A stretch of DNA of 40,557 nt from Planctomycetota bacterium (lineage in GTDB: Bacteria; Planctomycetota; Phycisphaerae; Sedimentisphaerales; Anaerobacaceae). This document shows positions 19,206 through 30,126 of the stretch, piece after piece. The stretch covers positions 1-40,557 of the forward strand of contig JACNGQ010000259.1 of the NCBI GenBank assembly GCA_014384025.1, read 5' to 3'. Made by a program: the position numbers and the translations under genes. The notes beneath the pieces were generated by a model. The model was not told where the DNA came from. It searched no databases and was given only the letters and a program-made list of their open reading frames with translations. How positions within the stretch are numbered: position 1 is the stretch's first letter; each line of letters begins with the position of its first letter.

Positions 19206-20051
19206 TTAGTAACCCACTCTGCCCCAGATTGCCTCCTGCATCTTCCGGACATCAGCGATGCCCTGCTCGGTAGTAGGGGTATAGTTATACTGCAGGGTCG
19301 CCATCTTTCCTGCTCTTATCGTTTCTGGTGCTCTGTACTTCCAGTATGCGCTGTGGCCGTCAGCGAAAGAGACGTTCGTGCCGTCCCCATGTCGGACAAA
19401 CGGTGGGTCCCACCATCTTGGCGCAGTGTAGTGAATCGCATAGCTATCCGGACTGATCTGGCCTTCATCAAGAAAAACGAGTCTATAGGCAGGAGCGGGG
19501 ACGACGATTTCCGACCTCTTCTTGACCATCAAGACCGTCTTGCCCACTCTCACTCCCCGGTTACCTTCATACGTTCCAGCCGCATCGAAACAGCCGTTCA
19601 TCCCATAGCCCGTGGAGTATGTGCGCATCTCACCACGAATACCTGTCGGGCAGCGGTACACCTTTTCGGCTGCGCAGTACGGAAAAAGGGCTCCGGCTTG
19701 GATGGCCTGCTTTTGTATGTTAATCGGTCGTTGCTCTCCCTGGCCGAAACCAGAGGCGCAGTCGTTGCCTACCCAATATTGCTCGCCCTTGTGAGGACCT
19801 GATGTTGGCACGGGGGCGGCGGGGTCGGCCGAAGGAGCCCAATAGGCTTCGCCGTTGACAATCATGTCGTCGTTTCCATCGGCATACATCGACCAGGCAA
19901 GTGTCAGTGTCTTTAGATGATTAAGGCAAACGGCACGTCTGCCCTGTTCTCTGGCCCGATTCAGCGCGGGCATGAGGATGGCCATCAGTACTGCAATGAT
20001 GGCGATTACCACCAGAAGCTCTATTAGTGTGAAACCTTTTTGCTTGTGCAT
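19206..20051 (-). CDS. Prepilin-like protein with H-x9-DG C-terminus
   Basis: A 281-residue protein with GGAGAAGGAGAA upstream of the ATG. The N-terminus [21 protein letters not shown] is a class III (type IV pilin/pseudopilin) signal: cleavage by prepilin peptidase after Gly, methylation of the following Phe, and glutamate at position +5. The C-terminal part has [12 protein letters not shown], exactly the H-x9-DG pattern of the large planctomycete pseudopilin-like family. Between them lie an N-terminal helix and a compact domain with several cysteines. Planctomycetes carry dozens of such genes; their role (surface filaments, type II secretion or other) is mostly untested. Degenerate copies of the same C-terminal pattern occur twice inside the giant protein at 20411-26380. 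Confidence 0.88.
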
Positions 20052-20173: not shown

Positions 20174-20233
20174 GCTTACAAATATAAAAGCCCCCACGGT
20201 ATGGAGGGGATTGGGAAATTAGAATGAAAAAAA

Positions 20234-20285
20234 GGGCCGAAAGTTGGATGAAAGGGAGTAAGCCAACTCGGCCCATATTTTTTTA
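20234..20285 (-). terminator. Strong terminator behind the giant M56 gene
   Basis: GGGCCGAAAGTTGG (20234-20247) pairs with CCAACTCGGCCC (20263-20274) around a 15-nt loop, with two bulged bases. Each side ends in a homopolymer: A-run then GGGCC on the left, and ATATTTTTTTAT on the right. It could therefore terminate in both directions. Its main use is likely the end of the minus-strand BlaI/M56 operon, whose stop is at 20411. Confidence 0.65.
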
Positions 20286-20410: not shown

Positions 20411-23400
20411 TTAATTATTTGGGCTTGCCGGGGTGTTTATCTTTTTATCGAGCTGCTCTGCGAGGCGTTTTATTTGCTCTTCGGAAACCTCCCGGCCGGG
20501 ACGGACTTTGGCGGCCTTTTGCTGTGGATTTATAACTGGTTTGAGCATTATCAATAGCATTTTTTGGCTCTTGGCTTTGTCCTTACTGCTAAAAGCAGCT
20601 CCAATGAGTGGCAGGTCCTTCAATCCCGGCGTTCCTGGTTTTTTTATTACAGGCTCGATTATTTTAAGGCCGCCGATGAGTATTGTTTTGCCTTTGGGAA
20701 TTGTATAGAGCATTTTTTCGCTGATTACATCGATTATTGGTTTGTAGGTTGGGTATTTCTCCTTGTATTTACCTTCTATGATGCCTGTGAGCTGACGAAT
20801 CTCTAATTTTAGATCCAGGTTAACGTTTCTATTATCGTCAGTCAGCTTCGGTGTGATCCAAATATGGGTACCTATTTTTTCCTTATCTCTTTTGGGCTGC
20901 GGCTCTTTGGAAGGACTATTAGGTTCGTTATAACTTTTGATATATCGGTATTCTTCGAGGATACCTGTATCCGCCGTTGTACCTGCACGAGTGTGTACCC
21001 GCGGTGCAACGATCGCTTTTGAATCATCATGAGCCTGAACGGCTCTGAGAAGAAACCTGACGTGGATGTCGTCAATGATAAGGCCGTATGGTTGACCGTT
21101 CGGCCCTGCGGGATACTTTTCGGCAAGAAGTCCCGTCCAGCCATTTAAGAAGTCCTCGGAATTTGGGTCGAGGCCAACGTATTTTAAATAATCCTCGCTT
21201 ACTGACAGGAATACGGTCTTGATGTAGATGGAAACCTGATTTCCAAGCGATTCACGCTTCACATTCAATAGTTTGTCTATTTCTTGATGAACCTCATAAG
21301 TCTGCATCACGGCAAGTTTCCTTGGTGACTGTATCGGATAAGCCATTATGGTTCCCTCTCCAGTATCACTAATGTCAGCCCAGCTATCCGGCTCAATGGT
21401 CTCCTGAATAAGCTGCACAAGACTCTGCGCCTGCATGTAGCCGCCCTGGCCGTCCATCATGCCGCCCATACTGCCCATCATACCGCCGCCCATGCCGCCA
21501 TCCATGCCGCCGCCCATCGTGCCACCACCCATGCCGCCCATCTTCATGCTCCGACTTCCTGACATCCTGTAATTGGCCGACTCGGAAACAAGGTCGGAGA
21601 TATCATAAACACGGTGAACCATTTTGGGTGGGAGCATATCAACCGTTTCAATCATGATTTCGGATCCGCTGATGCCGAGTTTTTTCAGCTTTTCAACCTT
21701 TTCAAAGCTCAAATGACAGTCGTTATAAAGAACAATAGTTCCCTTTCCTTCTTTTAGCAGTGTCTTGTCATATGCTAAGGGAATATCAGGACGGTCTACT
21801 GTCGACTTTCCGGATCCTAAATACTCTACATTTCGCTTAATCCAGGTGAAGTCTTTCCATTGATGAAATTCTGTAGTTCTAAACAGCGAATCCGGATATT
21901 TGTCGTCGTGTTGCTTGGCGTACATGAGCAGCGATTTGCCCAGGCTGGAAAGTTTCATAGCGGATTCTACGCGTGGCGAAACTTCAGGACTAATTCTAAT
22001 TTCGAGACCTGCTGAGGCAACCAGATAGTACTGCGGTGTTTTTTTCCATACATAAGGAGTACCGGCCAGGACGATGTCAAGCGCCGTTTCAACAGAGACG
22101 TCTTTTAACGTGCAGGATATAAGACCTTTGACGGTTTCATCGGGGATAATTGTAACGTTCGCCGCTGTGGCGATACTCTGAAGAGCTTCGAGGAGGGGAC
22201 AATCAATCAAAGTTTTACTAATAAGTTTTACTTTCGGAGCCAGAGGTAAGTTTGGTTCCGTTGCTTTAAGAGCTTGCTGCTGCTTAATAAGTTCAACCAG
22301 TTGTTTTTGTACCTGCTCCAAAGGTGTCATCGATTCTTCAGACTCATCGAGAAGTGCGGTGATTCTCTCCTTGTTTTCTTTATCGGTTTCTTCCTTCATC
22401 AAGTCGTCAAATGTTTTACCGACCTCTTCTTCCCAGTCTCTCAGGGCTTTTTTCAAGGCACGTAGTAATGAAGCTTTTATTTGGACTTCAGGATGTGACT
22501 GTGTATATTTTTGGCGAAGCTCCGTAAGGTCATTTTCAACTTTAAGTATCCTTTCATTAAGAAATTTAACCTTTATATCATTATTAATGTATTGCTGACG
22601 TAATATTACTATTTCATGTTGTTTGATTGCAGGCTTTGTCTTGTCTTGCTCTCTTAGGGAAGGTTGATTAGCGTCAGCGGTAGTCTTAACTAAGACGAAT
22701 GGTTTATAAACAGATTGCGACATTTTGGGAGGAAGCACATCCTTCGTTCCTATGAGTATTACTCCTTCGTCCACAATATAGGTCAGCTTTGGCAGTCCGG
22801 TAGAAGAGACACTGGTTAAGAGAATCTCCAGGGCTTTGCGAAGCTTAACGTGCGGTAGTGGGTCCATTCCAGCCGGTGTGGCTTCTTCGACCTCGGCATT
22901 ATCGAGTAAATCCTTCCAGATTGGTTGTATTTGTAAAGGCGGCTCTACGGAATTCTCCAATATTTCTATCACTTCACCAAAGGACATTTGCGGGGCCAGT
23001 TCCGAAAGGTCAACAATCATCTCAAGTTGCTCATGGACAGCTTTGTCCATCGGGTCCAGTCCCATTGTGGATTTGTCGATATCAAGCTTTTTTATCCACT
23101 GGCCGATTTGGTTTATATTTTCAGGTGAGGCCTTTGCAATAATCCATTTTCGTGTCGGTTCGGGGATAAGCAGGATCGGCCCGTTGCTCGACTCAATAAC
23201 AGAAGCGGTATCGGGCTTAATAACAGAGGTGGTATCGTGCCGGCCATTTATGAGCTTCTTCAAAATCTCGACAATCTCGACCGGGTCACCATAATGGATT
23301 TCAAAAATCTCTGTAATGGTTTCGTCGGCTTTTGTTTTGTTCTGCTCGTTGTCTTTTGGTCTTTCTGTCCTGCTCTTTGCTATTGCCGGCGGAGTAATCA

Positions 23401-26380
23401 CGTTAGTGGTTGTAGTGGGCGGCTCGGCTACTATCAGGTTCTCTGTCTTAGCCGGCTTGTCTTCTTCGGAAGAGTCGATTGTAGAAGCTTTGATCAGGAT
23501 AAGCAGGTCTTTTTGTTCGGTCCTGTCGTCCTGTGAGTCAGCTATTTTATGCCCCCCAAAGAGCAGTGTGTCGCCATCTTTTGCTACATAACGGGTGCTT
23601 TGAGCGCGACGTTGTACTGTCGGAGGCTTATATGGAGCTTTTCCTTCAAACTTACGTTCTTCGGAATCGAGGAAATTGGTAACCACTGATTCGAACTGCA
23701 TATCAATGTATTTCTTTGGTGTCAGCTTGGGCCAGAGCGATAATTCTATGCCTTCTTCTACTTTTTCGAGTTTTGGCTGTGGTTTCTCTGAAGGGCTGTT
23801 TGGCTCGGTATAACCTACAATGTAATAGGTTTCATTATTCATAACTGCGATATCTGCCCTTTTACCTTCCAGACAGGTTACTTGTGGTGTGGCAATCACT
23901 TTGGAATCTTTGTGTGCCATGACAGCTTTGAGGAGTAAGCTGACATCGCGATCAGAATGTATGAAACTTATTTTATTAGAGCCATCCACGGCCGCGAGCA
24001 GTTCAGATTTAAGTTTCAACAATTCCTTCGCTTCGTCCGGGGAATCTGCGTTATGGTTGATATTTTCAATGAAATCCTTGTTAACTGCCAGGAACCATGC
24101 TTCTATCAGGAATTCGGCTCTTTTGAGATTGAGCTGTTCAAAATCACTTCTCTGGCGAAAACGCACTGAGGAATCGAGAAACAGAACATTTGTTCCATCA
24201 GCTTTTTCAAGCAGTGTTTTATCGTAAGCTATGGGTATGTATGTGGCATTACGCTGTGCAGTTTTTCCCTTGTCAAAATATTCGACATTGTCACGAAACC
24301 AGTCAAAATCCCGTTCGTCAAGTAAATAAGGTTTTAATTCCTGAATGCTCTCGGGCAGATTATCATCGTGGTCATCGGCATACATAGCCACGGCGACGCC
24401 CAACCTTTTTAACTTGTCAGCCAATTGTACTTTTTCAATCTCGATCAGAATATGAGCTGGTGGCGGTGAATTGTTGGGTGGGGTGATTATGGTCGGAGTT
24501 ATAATTAACAGCAGTTCTTTTGCCTGCTTTTCGTTGTTATTTATATTTTCTCTAGGTGCGGGGTGATTTTCTACGAAACCGCCGATTATCACGCTTTCAC
24601 CCGGGCTGACACACACCTTGGAAGAAAGTTGTCTTGAGGATACTGGCCCGGGTTCTTCATATAAAGGTATGTCTTGTGAACCGAGGTCTGCTTCGACATC
24701 CAGAATTATGTGGCCATCTGCATGAATGTGAGGTGTAATTTCAATCAAGTCAACTACATCCACATATCCATTTTTATTTAATCGGATTATATAACCATCA
24801 GGCGCTGATTTGATTACTTGCTGTAGTGGTACATGTTGAGTCGATTTCACTGTTGCTGTTTTACCGTTGAGGGTTTCGATCGTCGGATTCATCAGGATTT
24901 TTATATAGCCTTTTGAGTTCAGCATTTTAACGAGAGCATTGAACTGCTTCTCTGTTACTCGCTTATTCCTGTCGGATTCATCCTTGACTGCGGCCGTGCC
25001 TTGGGCGGCTTTTCTCAATATTACATTAACCTTTGTGTTACGGAAACTTACTTTGCCGCCCAGAATTTTCTCGGCCTCTTTGAGTGTTTCGGCGTCAATA
25101 TTTGAATCAGGAGGAACTTCGACGACGAAGAAATTAGCCTTGATATGTGCTTTATCCTCATCAGGAGGTGCGGGACTTTTTGCCAGTATAGGGACGGGTG
25201 GAATGTTCTCGGCAGGAGATTCTTCAGACGGCGCAGTTGCGATTTGTATATCATCCTCAACCGAAACTTCAGTTTTTGTTTCAATCAGCGTGGAATCGGA
25301 TTTATTGGTCAGGGCGAGGGTTGTTGGTATGGCAAGCGCGATTATGAGGAGAATGGCGGTTGCTGCTGGTACCCAGCTTAGGCCGGTGTTGTCGGTTGAA
25401 TCCTTGCCGAGGAGGCGGCATATACGTCTGAACAGGTTGCCTCCGGTTGCTGCTACGGCTAATCTGTTGCTGGCGGCGCGGATTTCTTCCATTGAGGCCA
25501 GAGCTCCTGCGTAAGAGAGGCGGTCGCCGGATATGCTTACGGCCATATCGTCGCAGCAGTTTTCTCTTTCGGCGCGAATCTTATGTGAGATCCACCATAC
25601 AGCCGGGTGGTAAAAGCCGAGTATCTCGACGACGGTTTGCAGGATATTGATAAGATAATCGAATCTCTTAATATGAGCCAGCTCGTGGGCTATGATGGCC
25701 TCTAATTGTTCGGAACTCAGGCCGGTAAGGGCGCTGGCGGGCAGTAGAATGACGGGCTTTAGCCAGCCGACGACGGTAGGTATCTGGACCAGGGCGGACT
25801 CCATAAGCTGTACTGTTTGTTTGACCTTTAGCTTTTGGGTCAATACTTTTAGCTTATTGAGCAGTGTGGAATCTACCTGTCTGACCATTCTTCGTTTGAG
25901 ACGCTGCAACTGAGTCCAGCCGCCCAGGTGCCAGATGGAAAGGCCGAATACACCTATGAGCCATCCTGAGACTATGTAAGGCAAAGCCGGTTCGAGGGTA
26001 TTGACCGCACGCTCCTTGAATGGGATTGCAGGAACCACAGTGACACTTTCGGGCTGGTAAGGTTTTGCTACTACGATAGTTTCTGGTGCAGGCATTTCTT
26101 CTATCGGCAGTACTGTCGGTGCGGTTGCCGGGGCGAAGTGCGCAGCAACCAATGGCTGAGAAACAGGGACCAACTTAAAGGTTATAACAGGCAGCAGAAC
26201 TATCAGCGCCAAAGCCAGACAGGCAATTATATAACGCAGGTTAGCTGTGGATTTTCGCAATAATCTGAGCAGGATTGTCAGGATTAAAGCAACCGCTGCG
26301 GCCTGCCAGATAAAATTAAGCAGCGTCCAGCCGAGCCTTTGTACAATTTCCTGAGAAAGGATATCTTGTAAAATCAACAT
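20411..26380 (-). CDS. Giant M56 (BlaR1-like) peptidase fused to secretin-like modules
   Basis: A 1989-residue protein. GGAGGG before the ATG lies inside the end of the upstream blaI gene, a 2-bp intergenic join. Residues 1-300 form an M56 integral-membrane zinc peptidase with several hydrophobic segments and HELAH (His232, Glu233, His236). A last membrane helix is at about 337-357. The rest should be extracytoplasmic: a secretin-like module (410-635, ending ELLLIITPTIITP), a pseudopilin-like module (652-745), a second secretin-like module (752-966), a NolW-like segment (1020-1105), STN-like parts (1105-1215 and 1385-1460), a coiled coil (1255-1380), another pseudopilin-like module (1475-1570), a Gly/Met-rich linker (1610-1650), and a third secretin-like module (1715-1952). 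BlaR1 proteins sense an external signal and trigger BlaI cleavage. Here the sensor part is replaced, so its signal is unknown. Confidence 0.85.
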   Translation of the reverse strand: MLILQDILSQEIVQRLGWTLLNFIWQAAAVALILTILLRLLRKSTANLRYIIACLALALIVLLPVITFKLVPVSQPLVAAHFAPATAPTVLPIEEMPAPETIVVAKPYQPESVTVVPAIPFKERAVNTLEPALPYIVSGWLIGVFGLSIWHLGGWTQLQRLKRRMVRQVDSTLLNKLKVLTQKLKVKQTVQLMESALVQIPTVVGWLKPVILLPASALTGLSSEQLEAIIAHELAHIKRFDYLINILQTVVEILGFYHPAVWWISHKIRAERENCCDDMAVSISGDRLSYAGALASMEEIRAASNRLAVAATGGNLFRRICRLLGKDSTDNTGLSWVPAATAILLIIALAIPTTLALTNKSDSTLIETKTEVSVEDDIQIATAPSEESPAENIPPVPILAKSPAPPDEDKAHIKANFFVVEVPPDSNIDAETLKEAEKILGGKVSFRNTKVNVILRKAAQGTAAVKDESDRNKRVTEKQFNALVKMLNSKGYIKILMNPTIETLNGKTATVKSTQHVPLQQVIKSAPDGYIIRLNKNGYVDVVDLIEITPHIHADGHIILDVEADLGSQDIPLYEEPGPVSSRQLSSKVCVSPGESVIIGGFVENHPAPRENINNNEKQAKELLLIITPTIITPPNNSPPPAHILIEIEKVQLADKLKRLGVAVAMYADDHDDNLPESIQELKPYLLDERDFDWFRDNVEYFDKGKTAQRNATYIPIAYDKTLLEKADGTNVLFLDSSVRFRQRSDFEQLNLKRAEFLIEAWFLAVNKDFIENINHNADSPDEAKELLKLKSELLAAVDGSNKISFIHSDRDVSLLLKAVMAHKDSKVIATPQVTCLEGKRADIAVMNNETYYIVGYTEPNSPSEKPQPKLEKVEEGIELSLWPKLTPKKYIDMQFESVVTNFLDSEERKFEGKAPYKPPTVQRRAQSTRYVAKDGDTLLFGGHKIADSQDDRTEQKDLLILIKASTIDSSEEDKPAKTENLIVAEPPTTTTNVITPPAIAKSRTERPKDNEQNKTKADETITEIFEIHYGDPVEIVEILKKLINGRHDTTSVIKPDTASVIESSNGPILLIPEPTRKWIIAKASPENINQIGQWIKKLDIDKSTMGLDPMDKAVHEQLEMIVDLSELAPQMSFGEVIEILENSVEPPLQIQPIWKDLLDNAEVEEATPAGMDPLPHVKLRKALEILLTSVSSTGLPKLTYIVDEGVILIGTKDVLPPKMSQSVYKPFVLVKTTADANQPSLREQDKTKPAIKQHEIVILRQQYINNDIKVKFLNERILKVENDLTELRQKYTQSHPEVQIKASLLRALKKALRDWEEEVGKTFDDLMKEETDKENKERITALLDESEESMTPLEQVQKQLVELIKQQQALKATEPNLPLAPKVKLISKTLIDCPLLEALQSIATAANVTIIPDETVKGLISCTLKDVSVETALDIVLAGTPYVWKKTPQYYLVASAGLEIRISPEVSPRVESAMKLSSLGKSLLMYAKQHDDKYPDSLFRTTEFHQWKDFTWIKRNVEYLGSGKSTVDRPDIPLAYDKTLLKEGKGTIVLYNDCHLSFEKVEKLKKLGISGSEIMIETVDMLPPKMVHRVYDISDLVSESANYRMSGSRSMKMGGMGGGTMGGGMDGGMGGGMMGSMGGMMDGQGGYMQAQSLVQLIQETIEPDSWADISDTGEGTIMAYPIQSPRKLAVMQTYEVHQEIDKLLNVKRESLGNQVSIYIKTVFLSVSEDYLKYVGLDPNSEDFLNGWTGLLAEKYPAGPNGQPYGLIIDDIHVRFLLRAVQAHDDSKAIVAPRVHTRAGTTADTGILEEYRYIKSYNEPNSPSKEPQPKRDKEKIGTHIWITPKLTDDNRNVNLDLKLEIRQLTGIIEGKYKEKYPTYKPIIDVISEKMLYTIPKGKTILIGGLKIIEPVIKKPGTPGLKDLPLIGAAFSSKDKAKSQKMLLIMLKPVINPQQKAAKVRPGREVSEEQIKRLAEQLDKKINTPASPNN

Positions 26381-26382
26381 GA

Positions 26383-26766
26383 TTATTCCCTCCGGAATTC
26401 ATCCAGCATTTTTCTTATTCCTGCAAGCTCTTTCTTAGATACCTTTTTGGCCGAAAGTGCCCGCATGACGAGTTTTTCCGCCGAGCCTGAGAAGGCTCTT
26501 TCGAGCAGGTCGCCTACCAACTGCTTTTGAGTTTTTTCCTCTGTAATCGCCGGCTTATAGATGTGCTTGAACTGAGACTCATCTCTGCGCAGAAGTCCTT
26601 TTTCTGTCATTATCTGCATAAGCTTGAGAGTGGTGGTGTAGCCGGTATCCTCATCCTTGTTCATTGCCTCGTTGACCTGGCGAACCGTGCTTGGCCCGTT
26701 ATCCCATAATATTCTTAGGATTGTTACCTCTCTGTCGGTGGGTCGTGAATGTTTTTGTCTTGCCAT
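26383..26766 (-). CDS. BlaI/MecI-family transcriptional repressor
   Basis: A 127-residue winged-helix repressor of the Pfam Penicillinase_R family. AAAGGAG precedes the ATG. The N-terminal half (TDREVTILRILWDNGPSTVRQV, then TGYTTTLKLMQIMTEKGLLRR) is the DNA-binding domain, and the C-terminal half (LVGDLLERAFSGSAEKLVMRAL) forms the dimerisation helices. In the classic system the M56 partner triggers proteolysis near an Asn-Phe site; here the equivalent stretch contains AFSGS. It is the first gene of a two-gene operon with the giant M56 protein, and its own promoter carries two inverted repeats, so it should be autoregulated. Confidence 0.93.
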   Translation of the reverse strand: MARQKHSRPTDREVTILRILWDNGPSTVRQVNEAMNKDEDTGYTTTLKLMQIMTEKGLLRRDESQFKHIYKPAITEEKTQKQLVGDLLERAFSGSAEKLVMRALSAKKVSKKELAGIRKMLDEFRRE

Positions 26767-26805: not shown

Positions 26806-26849
26806 ATAATGTACGAAAAAATTCGTAGATGTCAACGAAAAAATTCGTA
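26806..26849 (-). promoter_or_regulatory. Promoter and double operator of the first BlaI operon
   Basis: On the minus strand TTGACA (26830-26835) is followed by TACATT (spacer 16) or CATTAT (spacer 18). The dyad TACGAAAAAATTCGTA (26812-26827) fills the spacer and touches the -10. A second copy starting AACGAA (26834-26849) covers the -35 from upstream. The copies are 22 bp apart, two helical turns. BlaI-family dimers bind such dyads, so these are the likely autoregulatory sites. Confidence 0.7.
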
Positions 26850-27063: not shown

Positions 27064-29652
27064 TTAGTTCTTCCTTGCTCCGTGCTTGCGCAGCAGTTCG
27101 AAGATTTCGGAATTCACTGGAGCCTCAGACAGAGGTGTGTTACCTTTTTTGTCTGTCGCGTTGACATTGGCGCCCGCGGCGATCAGTAGTCTCGCCGTCT
27201 TGTAGCGTCCTTTGTCGACTGCTTCGTGAAGAGGCGTGCGGTCGCGTGAGGGTGATTTCGCATTGACGTCTGCCCCCAGGGCAAGGAGCTTTTCGACGAT
27301 CTCTGCGCTTCTATTGTCCTTCACGCTTCCTTTGGCACCGGCGGCTAAATGAAGCGGTGTACCATTTTTGTACACCGCGTTTACATCCGCGCCGTTAGCG
27401 ATGAATAGGTCAAAAATGGCAATGTGACCACCTCTGGCTGCCGCGTGGAGTGCAGTTCCACACATCAATTTGTCTTCCGGTTGCAGGTTGACCTTAGCGC
27501 CGCTGGCAAGGAGTAATCTGACTATTTTTTCATGGCCATTCACCGCCGCATCTCCCAGCGGGTGCGTGCCGTTTTTCGCCGTGACGTTGACGACAGCCCC
27601 GTTGGCAATGAGCAGTTTGACAATTTCCTCATGGTCGGCCCCTGCGGCGATTTTTAGTGGGGTGTTGCCACTGTCAGGTTTGGCGTCGACTTCCACACCT
27701 TTGGCGATAAGCTGCTTTACGATCTCTGTGAAGCCGGCCTTGCTCGCCTGGTGCAGAAGCGTGCGCCCGTCATTTGCCTTAGCGGTAACGTTTGCCCCCT
27801 GGCTCAAGAGATATGCGAACACTTTCTTCTGCCCAGCGGATAATGCCCAGTAGGAGGGAGTCCAACCGAATTCATCCTTCGTATTTACATCCATGCCGCT
27901 CTCGACAAGCTGTGTGACCTTGGCCAGATCCCCTTCGAGCACAGCATTGTGGAAAGCGGGGATCTTAACTCTGGCCCCAATGAACTGCTTAGCCACGTCT
28001 GCGTTCGTTCCCTGGAGTGCATGGTGAAGAGGTGTCCGGCCGCTGTCGTCCTTGTAGTTGACATTAGCGCCAGCATCAATGAAGGCTTTGACGATGCCTT
28101 TGTGACCCTGCCAGACGGCCTCGAAAAAGGCATTGTACTCATCTTTTTCATTGATGCGTCTATTGACGTCGGCGCCGGCCGCAATAAGCATCCTGACAGC
28201 TTCTTCATCATCGATCCAGATCGCATAGTAGAGCGGCGTATACCCGTAGTTATCCCCGACATCGACTTTGGCTCCGTTTTCCAGCAGCACTTTCACTACC
28301 TGTGCATGGCCTGCGCAGGCGGCATCGAGTAGCGGTGTCCATGAATGATCCGCCATTTTCGCATTAACATCTGCCCCGTGAGCGATGAGCAATATAGCTA
28401 TCTCCTTATGACCACCCGAGGCGGCATGGAACAGTGGTGTCTGACCGGGGGCCTGTGGAGCATATCCTCTTTTGTCCTTCGCATTGACATCTGCTCCCTT
28501 TGCGATCAGCAATTTTACTTGCTCAATATCACCATCAGCCACAGCTTGGTGGAGTGACTTAGTGGGTTTGGCTTCGTGTTCGGTTGTAGTTTCTTGTTTT
28601 GCAGGCCGAGTTTGCGCACAGGCTACCACCATAGTAAGACATACCGCCACAATAGTAACTGTCAGGGCCCATACTGCTCCGGTTCTGGGATTGGGGCAGT
28701 TATTTTTCAGGATGCGCTGCACCCTGCCGGCCAGTCCTTTTTTGCTGCTGACCACTGCGGGTACAAACGCCATCTGTCCGCCGGGTGTCAAATCGAGTAG
28801 TGACTCGGCATAGTCCGTGCAGGGCTGGCCGGTAGCTACTACCCAGTCGTCACAGGCCTGCTCGCTTAAGCTTATCAGACGGGATTTTGCCCACCATAAA
28901 AGCGGATGCCAGGGCATGATGCACACGAGAAGCTCGGCTGATAATCCGCTGATATGGTCACGGCGTTTGTAGTGCGCTAATTCATGGCAAAGTACACCGG
29001 CCCAGTCAATTCTATTTTCAGATAATCCGGCTGCACTCGGCAGAAGCAGGATTGGTCTGCGCTTCCAGCACCATATCACAGGGCTTTGGACGCCCCGACT
29101 GCTGTAAAAGCTCACATCTTTATTAATTCGGAGTTTTGCCTTTGCCAGATGTACTGCTTGTTCAATCCTATTGCAGTCCAGAGGCATCGCCCGGCCAAGC
29201 AGGCGAACGCCTAAAATAAATGTCACAGCTAACCGGAATGCCAAAATCAAACTTGCTGCGAGCCAGCCGTATAACACGAATGAACGTAGGGGTAATTTTG
29301 TGCTTTCTGGAGTAGTTATTACAGATGTTAAATCCTTTTCAACAGTACCGGGCTTATGCTCAATATTTTCTATGGAAGTGATTCCAGTAGCTTCGTATAT
29401 AATTTGGTCTTCCGGCTGCGATTGAATTGCAATCGGTTCTGCTTCAAACATCCCCAGTTCATAGTGCTTTACCAATATGCTGATGACCGGTACAGCTACA
29501 GCCGCAATAATCGCCAAAAGCAGTACCTGATGTGCCCTTGCCGAGCGATGTCTTAGGATGAAGCTGCCGAGAAGGCCGGCCGCAATAAAAATCGTGCTCT
29601 GCCATAAACAGCTCCACAAGAACAATTCCGCTGAGAATAGCTCGCTTATCAT
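27064..29652 (-). CDS. M56 (BlaR1-like) peptidase fused to ankyrin repeats
   Basis: An 862-residue protein. Residues 1-300 are an M56 membrane peptidase: hydrophobic segments at about 10-60 and 125-150, HELAH (His223, Glu224, His227), then WHPLLWWAKSRL and SEQACDDWVV. A last membrane helix is at 326-345. From 366 to the end about 15 ankyrin repeats follow, each of the GxTPLHxAA...GHxEIVKLLIAxGADVNAK type; repeats 6 and 7 are shortened. By BlaR1 topology the ankyrin part should lie outside the cytoplasm, as the sensor. The start overlaps the stop of its blaI partner (ATGA), indicating translational coupling. The ligand is unknown; ankyrin repeats normally bind proteins. Confidence 0.9.
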   Translation of the reverse strand: MISELFSAELFLWSCLWQSTIFIAAGLLGSFILRHRSARAHQVLLLAIIAAVAVPVISILVKHYELGMFEAEPIAIQSQPEDQIIYEATGITSIENIEHKPGTVEKDLTSVITTPESTKLPLRSFVLYGWLAASLILAFRLAVTFILGVRLLGRAMPLDCNRIEQAVHLAKAKLRINKDVSFYSSRGVQSPVIWCWKRRPILLLPSAAGLSENRIDWAGVLCHELAHYKRRDHISGLSAELLVCIMPWHPLLWWAKSRLISLSEQACDDWVVATGQPCTDYAESLLDLTPGGQMAFVPAVVSSKKGLAGRVQRILKNNCPNPRTGAVWALTVTIVAVCLTMVVACAQTRPAKQETTTEHEAKPTKSLHQAVADGDIEQVKLLIAKGADVNAKDKRGYAPQAPGQTPLFHAASGGHKEIAILLIAHGADVNAKMADHSWTPLLDAACAGHAQVVKVLLENGAKVDVGDNYGYTPLYYAIWIDDEEAVRMLIAAGADVNRRINEKDEYNAFFEAVWQGHKGIVKAFIDAGANVNYKDDSGRTPLHHALQGTNADVAKQFIGARVKIPAFHNAVLEGDLAKVTQLVESGMDVNTKDEFGWTPSYWALSAGQKKVFAYLLSQGANVTAKANDGRTLLHQASKAGFTEIVKQLIAKGVEVDAKPDSGNTPLKIAAGADHEEIVKLLIANGAVVNVTAKNGTHPLGDAAVNGHEKIVRLLLASGAKVNLQPEDKLMCGTALHAAARGGHIAIFDLFIANGADVNAVYKNGTPLHLAAGAKGSVKDNRSAEIVEKLLALGADVNAKSPSRDRTPLHEAVDKGRYKTARLLIAAGANVNATDKKGNTPLSEAPVNSEIFELLRKHGARKN

Positions 29653-30041
29653 TTTTTTGTCTCCTTTCTTTTTTCGTCAATCATATTGCGAAGCTCCCGA
29701 AGCTCATTATCGCTGAGCCTGCTCTGTCGCATCAGATGCTGAAACATCAAAAGGGCGTTACCGTCGAACATTCGTTCCATAAACTTTCGCACCGAGCTTG
29801 CGCCGGCTTCTTCGCGAGTTCGGGTGGGTATATAAACGTATGTTTTGCCTTCATTACGGTGCCGGAGCCAGCCGGCTTTTTCAAGCTTCTGCAAAGCGGT
29901 CAGGACCGTCGTATAGGCGAGTTTTTTCTTGAGGGCAAGCTGTTTGCGAACCTGGTGGACACTTGCCTCGCCAAGCTCCCAGACCACCTCAATTACCGCA
30001 CGCTGAAGCTTGCCTAAATCGTCAAGTAACTTACTGCTCAT
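29649..30041 (-). CDS. BlaI/MecI-family transcriptional repressor
   Basis: A 130-residue repressor when started at ATG 30039-30041 (MSSKLLDDLGKLQRAVIEVVWEL), with GGAGG eight bases upstream. The frame is open 27 codons further upstream, but those codons run through the promoter and operator. The winged helix covers about 10-75 (ASVHQVRKQL, LAYTTVLTALQKLEKAGWLRH). The C-terminal dimerisation helices include VRKFMERMFDGNALLMFQHL. Its last codons overlap the M56-ankyrin start. It is only distantly similar to the repressor at 26383, and the operator sequences of the two also differ, so the two circuits are probably insulated from each other. Confidence 0.92.
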   Translation of the reverse strand: MSSKLLDDLGKLQRAVIEVVWELGEASVHQVRKQLALKKKLAYTTVLTALQKLEKAGWLRHRNEGKTYVYIPTRTREEAGASSVRKFMERMFDGNALLMFQHLMRQSRLSDNELRELRNMIDEKRKETKK

Positions 30042-30082
30042 AATATTAACCTCCATATCTGAAAATTTACCTCGATATACAC

Positions 30083-30126
30083 TACGTTGGCTCAAAGTAC
30101 TATGAACCATAGTATTTGTCAACGTA
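30083..30126 (-). promoter_or_regulatory. Promoter and operator of the second BlaI operon
   Basis: On the minus strand TTGACA (30117-30122), an exactly 17-bp spacer, and TACTTT (30094-30099). The perfect dyad TACTATG-AAC-CATAGTA (30098-30114) lies in the spacer and overlaps the -10. It is flanked by a second inverted pair, TACGTTG (30083-30089) and CAACGTA (30120-30126), which covers the -35. A bound BlaI dimer here would block RNA polymerase. Transcription would start near 30087, giving a leader of about 45 nt. Confidence 0.75.

Follow-up and report, generated by a model that had tools for sequence, protein, structure and literature searches.

A BlaR1-type membrane peptidase with a mosaic of secretin- and pilin-like modules in a planctomycete: a candidate autoregulated sensor of secretion machine parts

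In Staphylococcus, penicillin is sensed by a protease of the BlaR1 type. A gene of related type lies in the 40,557-nucleotide stretch of planctomycete DNA analysed here (the window), at 20411-26380 on the minus strand, and encodes a protein of 1989 amino acids in which a peptidase of the M56 family is followed by a series of secretin- and pilin-like modules. The question raised by this locus is what a sensor of such composition would respond to. A sequence-only reading had proposed that the protein may read the assembly state of a secretion or pilus machine, or build a channel itself, and pass this to a BlaI repressor.

The mosaic gene, defined by its open reading frame, domains and orthologues, is intact, with an ATG start and 1989 open codons, and begins 2 bp downstream of blaI (26383-26766, minus strand). 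The orthologous locus in three congeneric genomes also holds such a fusion: G003 (2385 amino acids) and G002 (1213 amino acids) encode it in a single unbroken frame, and G005 in two frames split solely by a scaffold gap (Ns). These orthologues in independent genomes rule out a run-on frame or a misassembly of separate genes, a possibility that the sequence-only reading had raised. Close M56 orthologues were present in 14 genomes, including the source genome (G000). A secretin domain exceeded the Pfam cut-off in nine of these (G000, G003, G028, G012, G019, G021, which carries locus L043, G036, G037 and G029), BLAST located secretin segments in three more (G005, G002 and G023, the last with an M56 gene probably divided between contigs C134 and C93), and neither Pfam nor BLAST found a secretin domain or segment in the orthologues of G051 and G011. 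Distant family members range in size from 943 to more than 3397 amino acids; a 3397-residue M56 fusion fragment of G023 (L174:4082-14275) has an almost complete core secretin at its C-terminal end. Across 392 genomes of the phylum, the combination of M56, pilin and secretin modules was found mainly in the taxonomic family of the source genome, and the secretin domain was absent from all ten M56 proteins of Bacteroidota or related groups that were inspected. No paper describing a fusion of M56 with secretin turned up in the literature collection searched.

The N-terminal part of the protein resembles staphylococcal BlaR1/MecR1. The Peptidase_M56 domain (25421-26326, minus strand; residues 19-320) exceeds the Pfam cut-off (PF05569, E 1.5e-34) and matches the BlaR1 structure 8exs (E 6.7e-8). 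In alignment to BlaR1, the HELAH zinc motif (25673-25687, minus strand; residues 232-236) is followed by the third zinc ligand E273 and by D277 (25550-25564, minus strand), so that the gluzincin pattern H-E-x-x-H...E...D falls at equivalent positions with the spacing of the M56 family; H232, H236, E273 and D277 align with the catalytic residues H201, H205, E242 and D246 of Staphylococcus aureus BlaR1 (PMC9834060). Hydropathy peaks at residues 20-38, 50-68 and 339-357, with the third helix below threshold, and the last peak corresponds to a transmembrane helix after the peptidase (25307-25372, minus strand; residues 337-358). These peaks would suit a BlaR1-like arrangement, with helices on both sides of the peptidase and the sensor at the C-terminus; the region after helix 337-358 is predicted to be extracytoplasmic, and by analogy with BlaR1 and from the helix pattern we infer that the zinc protease faces the cytoplasm and the mosaic the periplasm. 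The protein differs from BlaR1 in its length (1989 against about 585 amino acids) and in its sensor, which consists of secretin and pilin modules instead of a penicillin-binding-protein-like domain: Pfam detected no penicillin-binding-protein or class D beta-lactamase-like domain, and the NCBIfam BlaR1 models fall far below cut-off, including blaR1_generic despite its E of 9.4e-28.

The expectation that BlaR1 sensors normally resemble penicillin-binding proteins fits the staphylococcal system and is overstated for this phylum, in which M56 partners include ankyrin, LRR, LamG, WD40, SecDF-P1 and CarboxypepD_reg domains. Directly upstream in the window (27064-30122) lies a second BlaI and M56 pair whose M56 protein carries about 13 ankyrin repeats in its predicted extracytoplasmic part. 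Elsewhere in the same genome are M56 proteins with LamG/CarboxypepD_reg (L025:2169-6725) and with LRR (L026:8641-11865), and a relative encodes one with WD40 repeats (L103:3-4373). The M56 family appears, by its domain content, to have expanded with very varied partners in the source genome and this relative. Since the phylum's M56 proteins carry so many unrelated domains, a specific meaning of the secretin modules is not guaranteed. The main rival to a monitoring function is accordingly generic shuffling, in which M56 accepts many extracytoplasmic domains, recombination between homologous secretin genes kept adding pieces after a first secretin module had entered, and the modules have a general binding or spacer role (for a polymer, the cell wall or another ligand) unrelated to secretion. 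The fusions of M56 to all six of these partner types in the same genome or phylum speak for this explanation, which we regard as a real possibility while doubting it on evidence given below.

Pfam and NCBIfam searches confirmed the architecture that had been read from the sequence, namely an M56 peptidase with three secretin domains and two N-domain-like (STN-like) parts. Pfam Secretin (PF00263) matches three stretches (E 1.7e-51), the NCBIfam PilQ, GspD and MshL profiles match repeatedly (1e-45 to 1e-30), and the secretin part matches the GspD structure 6i1y (E 3.1e-22). From the N-terminus, and all on the minus strand, module S1 (24479-25150; residues 411-634; PF00263) precedes the first pilin-like module, which is followed by S2 (23477-24106; residues 759-968; PF00263), these two forming one unit. 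Next come an N1-like Secretin_N domain, here N1a (23072-23314; residues 1023-1103; PF03958, E 2.8e-7), an N-domain-like segment termed mid (22673-23071; residues 1104-1236) and a coiled-coil-like spacer (22211-22672; residues 1237-1390), whose C-terminal part is common to a C157-type secretin. The spacer also weakly resembles polysaccharide chain-length determinants (TIGR03007, YTQSHPE motif). An STN domain (21992-22210; residues 1391-1463; PF07660 at 1411-1455, E 1.7e-5, slightly below the curated cut-off), the second pilin-like module, an inserted piece of core secretin with a Gly/Met-rich loop and an N domain (21215-21634; residues 1583-1722) and S3 (20516-21214; residues 1723-1955; PF00263 at 1781-1950) complete the chain. 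An AlphaFold model of residues 640-990, the unit of pilin module 1 and S2, reached a mean pLDDT of 81; its first ~104 residues form a long helix and beta-sheet, and the remainder is a secretin domain that matches secretins only. Secretins made up the top 28 structural matches of this model (Z 8-10.7, about 10 for S2), led by PilQ 6w6m (Z 10.7) and GspD 9k8v (Z 10.6). The model of residues 1384-1989 was poor (pLDDT 60.7), and only its secretin part was used.

These matches bear on the suggestion that the protein builds a channel. Such a channel would arise if the modules oligomerised with standalone secretins and linked the inner membrane to the outer one, the peptidase serving as a checkpoint; the predicted secretin fold with long beta-hairpins would suit it, as would the LxxLPLIGxAF motif of S3, which is of the LxxIPxxGxxF type. 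The sequence-only reading's channel option nevertheless fares poorly. The LxxIPxxGxLF motif is missing from S1 (read from sequence) and S2. Standalone secretins of the same taxonomic order have a Gly-rich stretch of ~30-50 residues behind the FLxDIG motif, which is absent from the fused modules, and their loops are longer; because of these features, pore formation is judged unlikely. The mosaic protein also begins with an inner-membrane M56 domain and has no signal peptide, so that the combination of signal peptide and complete beta-domain expected of an outer-membrane secretin is absent, and three secretin modules per chain do not suit a ring of single-secretin protomers. We therefore consider a channel very improbable. 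In overall terms the protein resembles the secretins PilQ and GspD (PF00263) in its three secretin-fold domains and N-domain-like parts, several of which have their closest match among the secretins of their own genome or genus, and differs from them in its N-terminal inner-membrane peptidase and in carrying several incomplete secretin domains per chain.

The two degenerate pseudopilin C-termini noted earlier proved to be parts of whole modules of ~120 amino acids. Module 1 (24086-24448, minus strand; residues 645-765) was defined by a profile family, by hhalign to H-x9-DG pilins and by AlphaFold, and module 2 (21635-21991, minus strand; residues 1464-1582) by the profile family. A profile grown from these two copies recovered 20 full-length copies from the loci that were fetched. 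All but one lie inside M56 genes (19 copies), and the twentieth (L044:14633-16690) is in an ORF directly after an M56 ORF; one locus (L172) has four in tandem. The module has an amphipathic N-terminal helix and the C-terminal consensus GTNVLFxDGHVxF. Profile-profile comparison by hhalign related the helix to H-x9-DG pilins (P 4e-6 over 33 columns) and gave no match to GspG-type pilins (P 0.05). No relative was found among PDB sequences. The modules thus share the soluble-domain helix and C-terminal motif of the H-x9-DG, or DUF1559-type, planctomycete pilins and differ from these in lacking the prepilin N-terminus (Pfam found no N_methyl motif in the mosaic protein), in being embedded in a larger protein and in occurring in up to four tandem copies. 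Among the 392 genomes of the phylum, weak matches occurred in 15 others, in frames not M56-like in appearance, and therefore the pilin-like module is wider than the M56-secretin family.

The source genome has 11 other places with secretin domains. The segments of the sensor resemble different standalone secretins of that genome. S1 resembles a C430-type secretin (about 50%), and both mid (62%) and the insert resemble the C437-type core secretin; the STN domain is nearest to the genome's own C157-type secretin (73% identity) and N1a to its GspD-like secretin C441. A core secretin of ~1150 amino acids with a Gly/Met-rich loop (L042:4338-7737; also L142, L143 and L154) is encoded beside a tsaB-like gene and is followed by a giant secreted-looking protein of 1374-2938 amino acids, possibly a dedicated secretin-cargo pair that is kept across the taxonomic order. 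In trees, the fusions of the genus share a single mid clade (95/95) nested among the core secretins of the genus, and the mid segment of the giant G023 fusion groups with G023's own core secretin. A single origin of mid for all fusions was rejected (AU p=0.0016), giving at least two independent captures.

The insert records a further capture. It lies between pilin module 2 and S3, a position at which the G003 and G005 orthologues lack it, and at the DNA level its N-domain part shares 88.0% identity with the genome's own core secretin C437, against 85.1, 82.9 and 80.1% to the core secretins of G005, G001 and G002. In the tree it stands beside its own genome's copy (82/86) inside a group that includes G001 (98/98), and grouping the four core secretins together to the exclusion of the insert was rejected (AU p=2e-5). 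Its placement within the core secretins of the genus is firm on these alignments, and a sister relationship to the copy of its own genome is suggested, not firm. The insert ends in a shared FLxVSExYL sequence, which is consistent with homologous recombination and to that extent favours generic shuffling. Recombination between secretins could give rise to mosaics even where mimicry is not selected for. Regular gene conversion between all modules and the secretins of their own genome was ruled out, as both mid and S1 of the fusions in this genus fall into clades of their own. The phylogenies indicate repeated and recent capture of pieces from secretin genes of the same lineage, as is expected if the sensor has to resemble those machines, and this suggests that the pieces serve the cell as bait with which it keeps watch over its secretion machinery. 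Generic shuffling accounts poorly for the independence of own-lineage captures in separate genera, for the use of at least three different secretins as sources and for the pairing of secretin with pilin modules, which recurs as a unit across many family orthologues. The independent captures argue for a specific purpose without proving it.

Between G000 and G003, dN/dS was about 0.19 for the peptidase, 0.30 for S2, 0.38 for S3 and 0.30 for pilin module 2, and between G000 and G005 the corresponding values were 0.12, 0.20, 0.33 and 0.25; S1 gave about 0.55, a high value that favours generic shuffling. The sensor modules evolve faster than the peptidase overall (about 0.2-0.6 versus 0.12-0.19). 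All module values are below 1, so the modules are maintained as protein by purifying selection, and every one is still in frame, which counts against generic shuffling. Pilin module 1 is nearly identical between G000 and G003 (24086-24448 and L158:4799-5161), with a dS of 0.05 against 0.28-0.79 in its neighbours. A value so far below the flanks points to exchange of this module between lineages, and sensor modules thus appear from these comparisons to be shuffled between congeneric species.

Movement of modules between lineages, together with rapid divergence and the uptake, several times over, of copied host parts into a receptor, would also be expected of a decoy. In plant immune receptors, integrated decoys work when an agent binds the bait; by this analogy, the modules could attract phages, predators or toxins that target secretins or pili, and the binding of such an agent would trigger the protease. 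The predicted regulon described below contains no defence gene and consists of the operon alone, and we consider this explanation quite unlikely. A broader form, in which fresh secretin and pilin copies are renewed by recombination with the real genes and either binding or damage to the machines trips the sensor, is a little less so, and still unlikely.

The output of the system can be predicted from its promoter. The adjacent repressor gene (26383-26766, minus strand; 127 amino acids) is of BlaI/MecI type (PF03965, E 1.4e-25; 1sd4) and stands directly upstream of the M56 gene in the orthologues too. Upstream of blaI lies a predicted BlaI operator of two tandem dyads, ACGAA-N4-TTCGT (26813-26848, minus strand), at 26813-26826 and 26835-26848, 22 bp apart, which overlap a TTGACA / TACATTAT-like promoter. 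This double dyad is kept in the promoters of the orthologues. The proposed BlaR1-type peptidase beside BlaI is supported; an adjacent repressor gene and dyad operators over the promoter, predicted here, are likewise features of BlaR1/BlaI. The tandem site occurs once in the source genome. In 12 related genomes it was found once each in nine and never in three, with 0 hits for the reversed control; two of the three (G019 and G028) show a looser form by eye. The source and the nine relatives with the site span six genera. For eight of these nine relatives, the M56 orthologue follows shortly downstream of the site on the same contig, the ninth (G001:C24) being outside the comparison. Four single exact dyads elsewhere in the source genome are all inside ORFs. 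A wider BlaI regulon was ruled out on these grounds, and since the tandem operator is at its own promoter only, the predicted regulon is the operon itself.

The operon also has a distinct end. A hairpin resembling an intrinsic terminator, GGGCCGA...TCGGCCC with a T run (20226-20274, minus strand; read from sequence), closes it before a pseudopilin gene (19206-20051) that G005 and G002 do not have at the corresponding place; an operon shared with this gene was ruled out by the terminator and the missing conservation. The link to secretion genes through BlaI that had been envisaged was thus not upheld: the operator search in the source genome placed no secretion gene under predicted control, which counts against a monitoring function. 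The system further differs from BlaR1/BlaI in this narrow regulon and in its repressor, in which the cleavage pair N101-F102 of S. aureus BlaI aligns to R-A. With the N-F pair replaced in this way, cleavage of the BlaI of this operon is not implied by its sequence.

We tentatively favour, with a probability of roughly 0.4, an autoregulated inner-membrane sensor of BlaR1/BlaI type that uses secretin and pilin mimics to monitor unassembled or mislocalised machine parts. The extracytoplasmic part would mimic the cell's own secretins and H-x9-DG pilins, and its modules would bind, or co-assemble with, secretin protomers and pilins that are unassembled or mislocalised. Occupancy of the modules would alter the state of the protease, which would cleave or release BlaI, and BlaI would then leave the double operator. 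With its own operon as the sole predicted target, the mosaic protein would be sensor and product at once: induction would raise its level, and it may then sequester the subunits at fault. The earlier proposal that the protein reads the assembly state of a machine is plausible in this form. The proposed analogue is the Psp response: in Yersinia, PspBC form an inner-membrane complex with multimeric mislocalised secretins that senses and detoxifies them with a narrow output (PMC5596341). The monitoring system proposed here has no sequence relation to PspB/PspC and would use protease/BlaI signalling instead of Psp regulators. PspA was not detected in the source genome, which together with the 11 other secretin-domain places favours the monitoring reading; a PspC-like domain is present, and this counts against it.

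If the monitoring reading is true, a BlaR1-type receptor would have been redirected to a new signal by taking up parts of the machine that it watches, and a form of surveillance over secretin assembly would exist in bacteria that have many secretins and in which PspA is not detected. What the many non-penicillin BlaR1-like proteins sense would then become directly testable, as the modules point to candidate ligands and the unique operator supplies a reporter.
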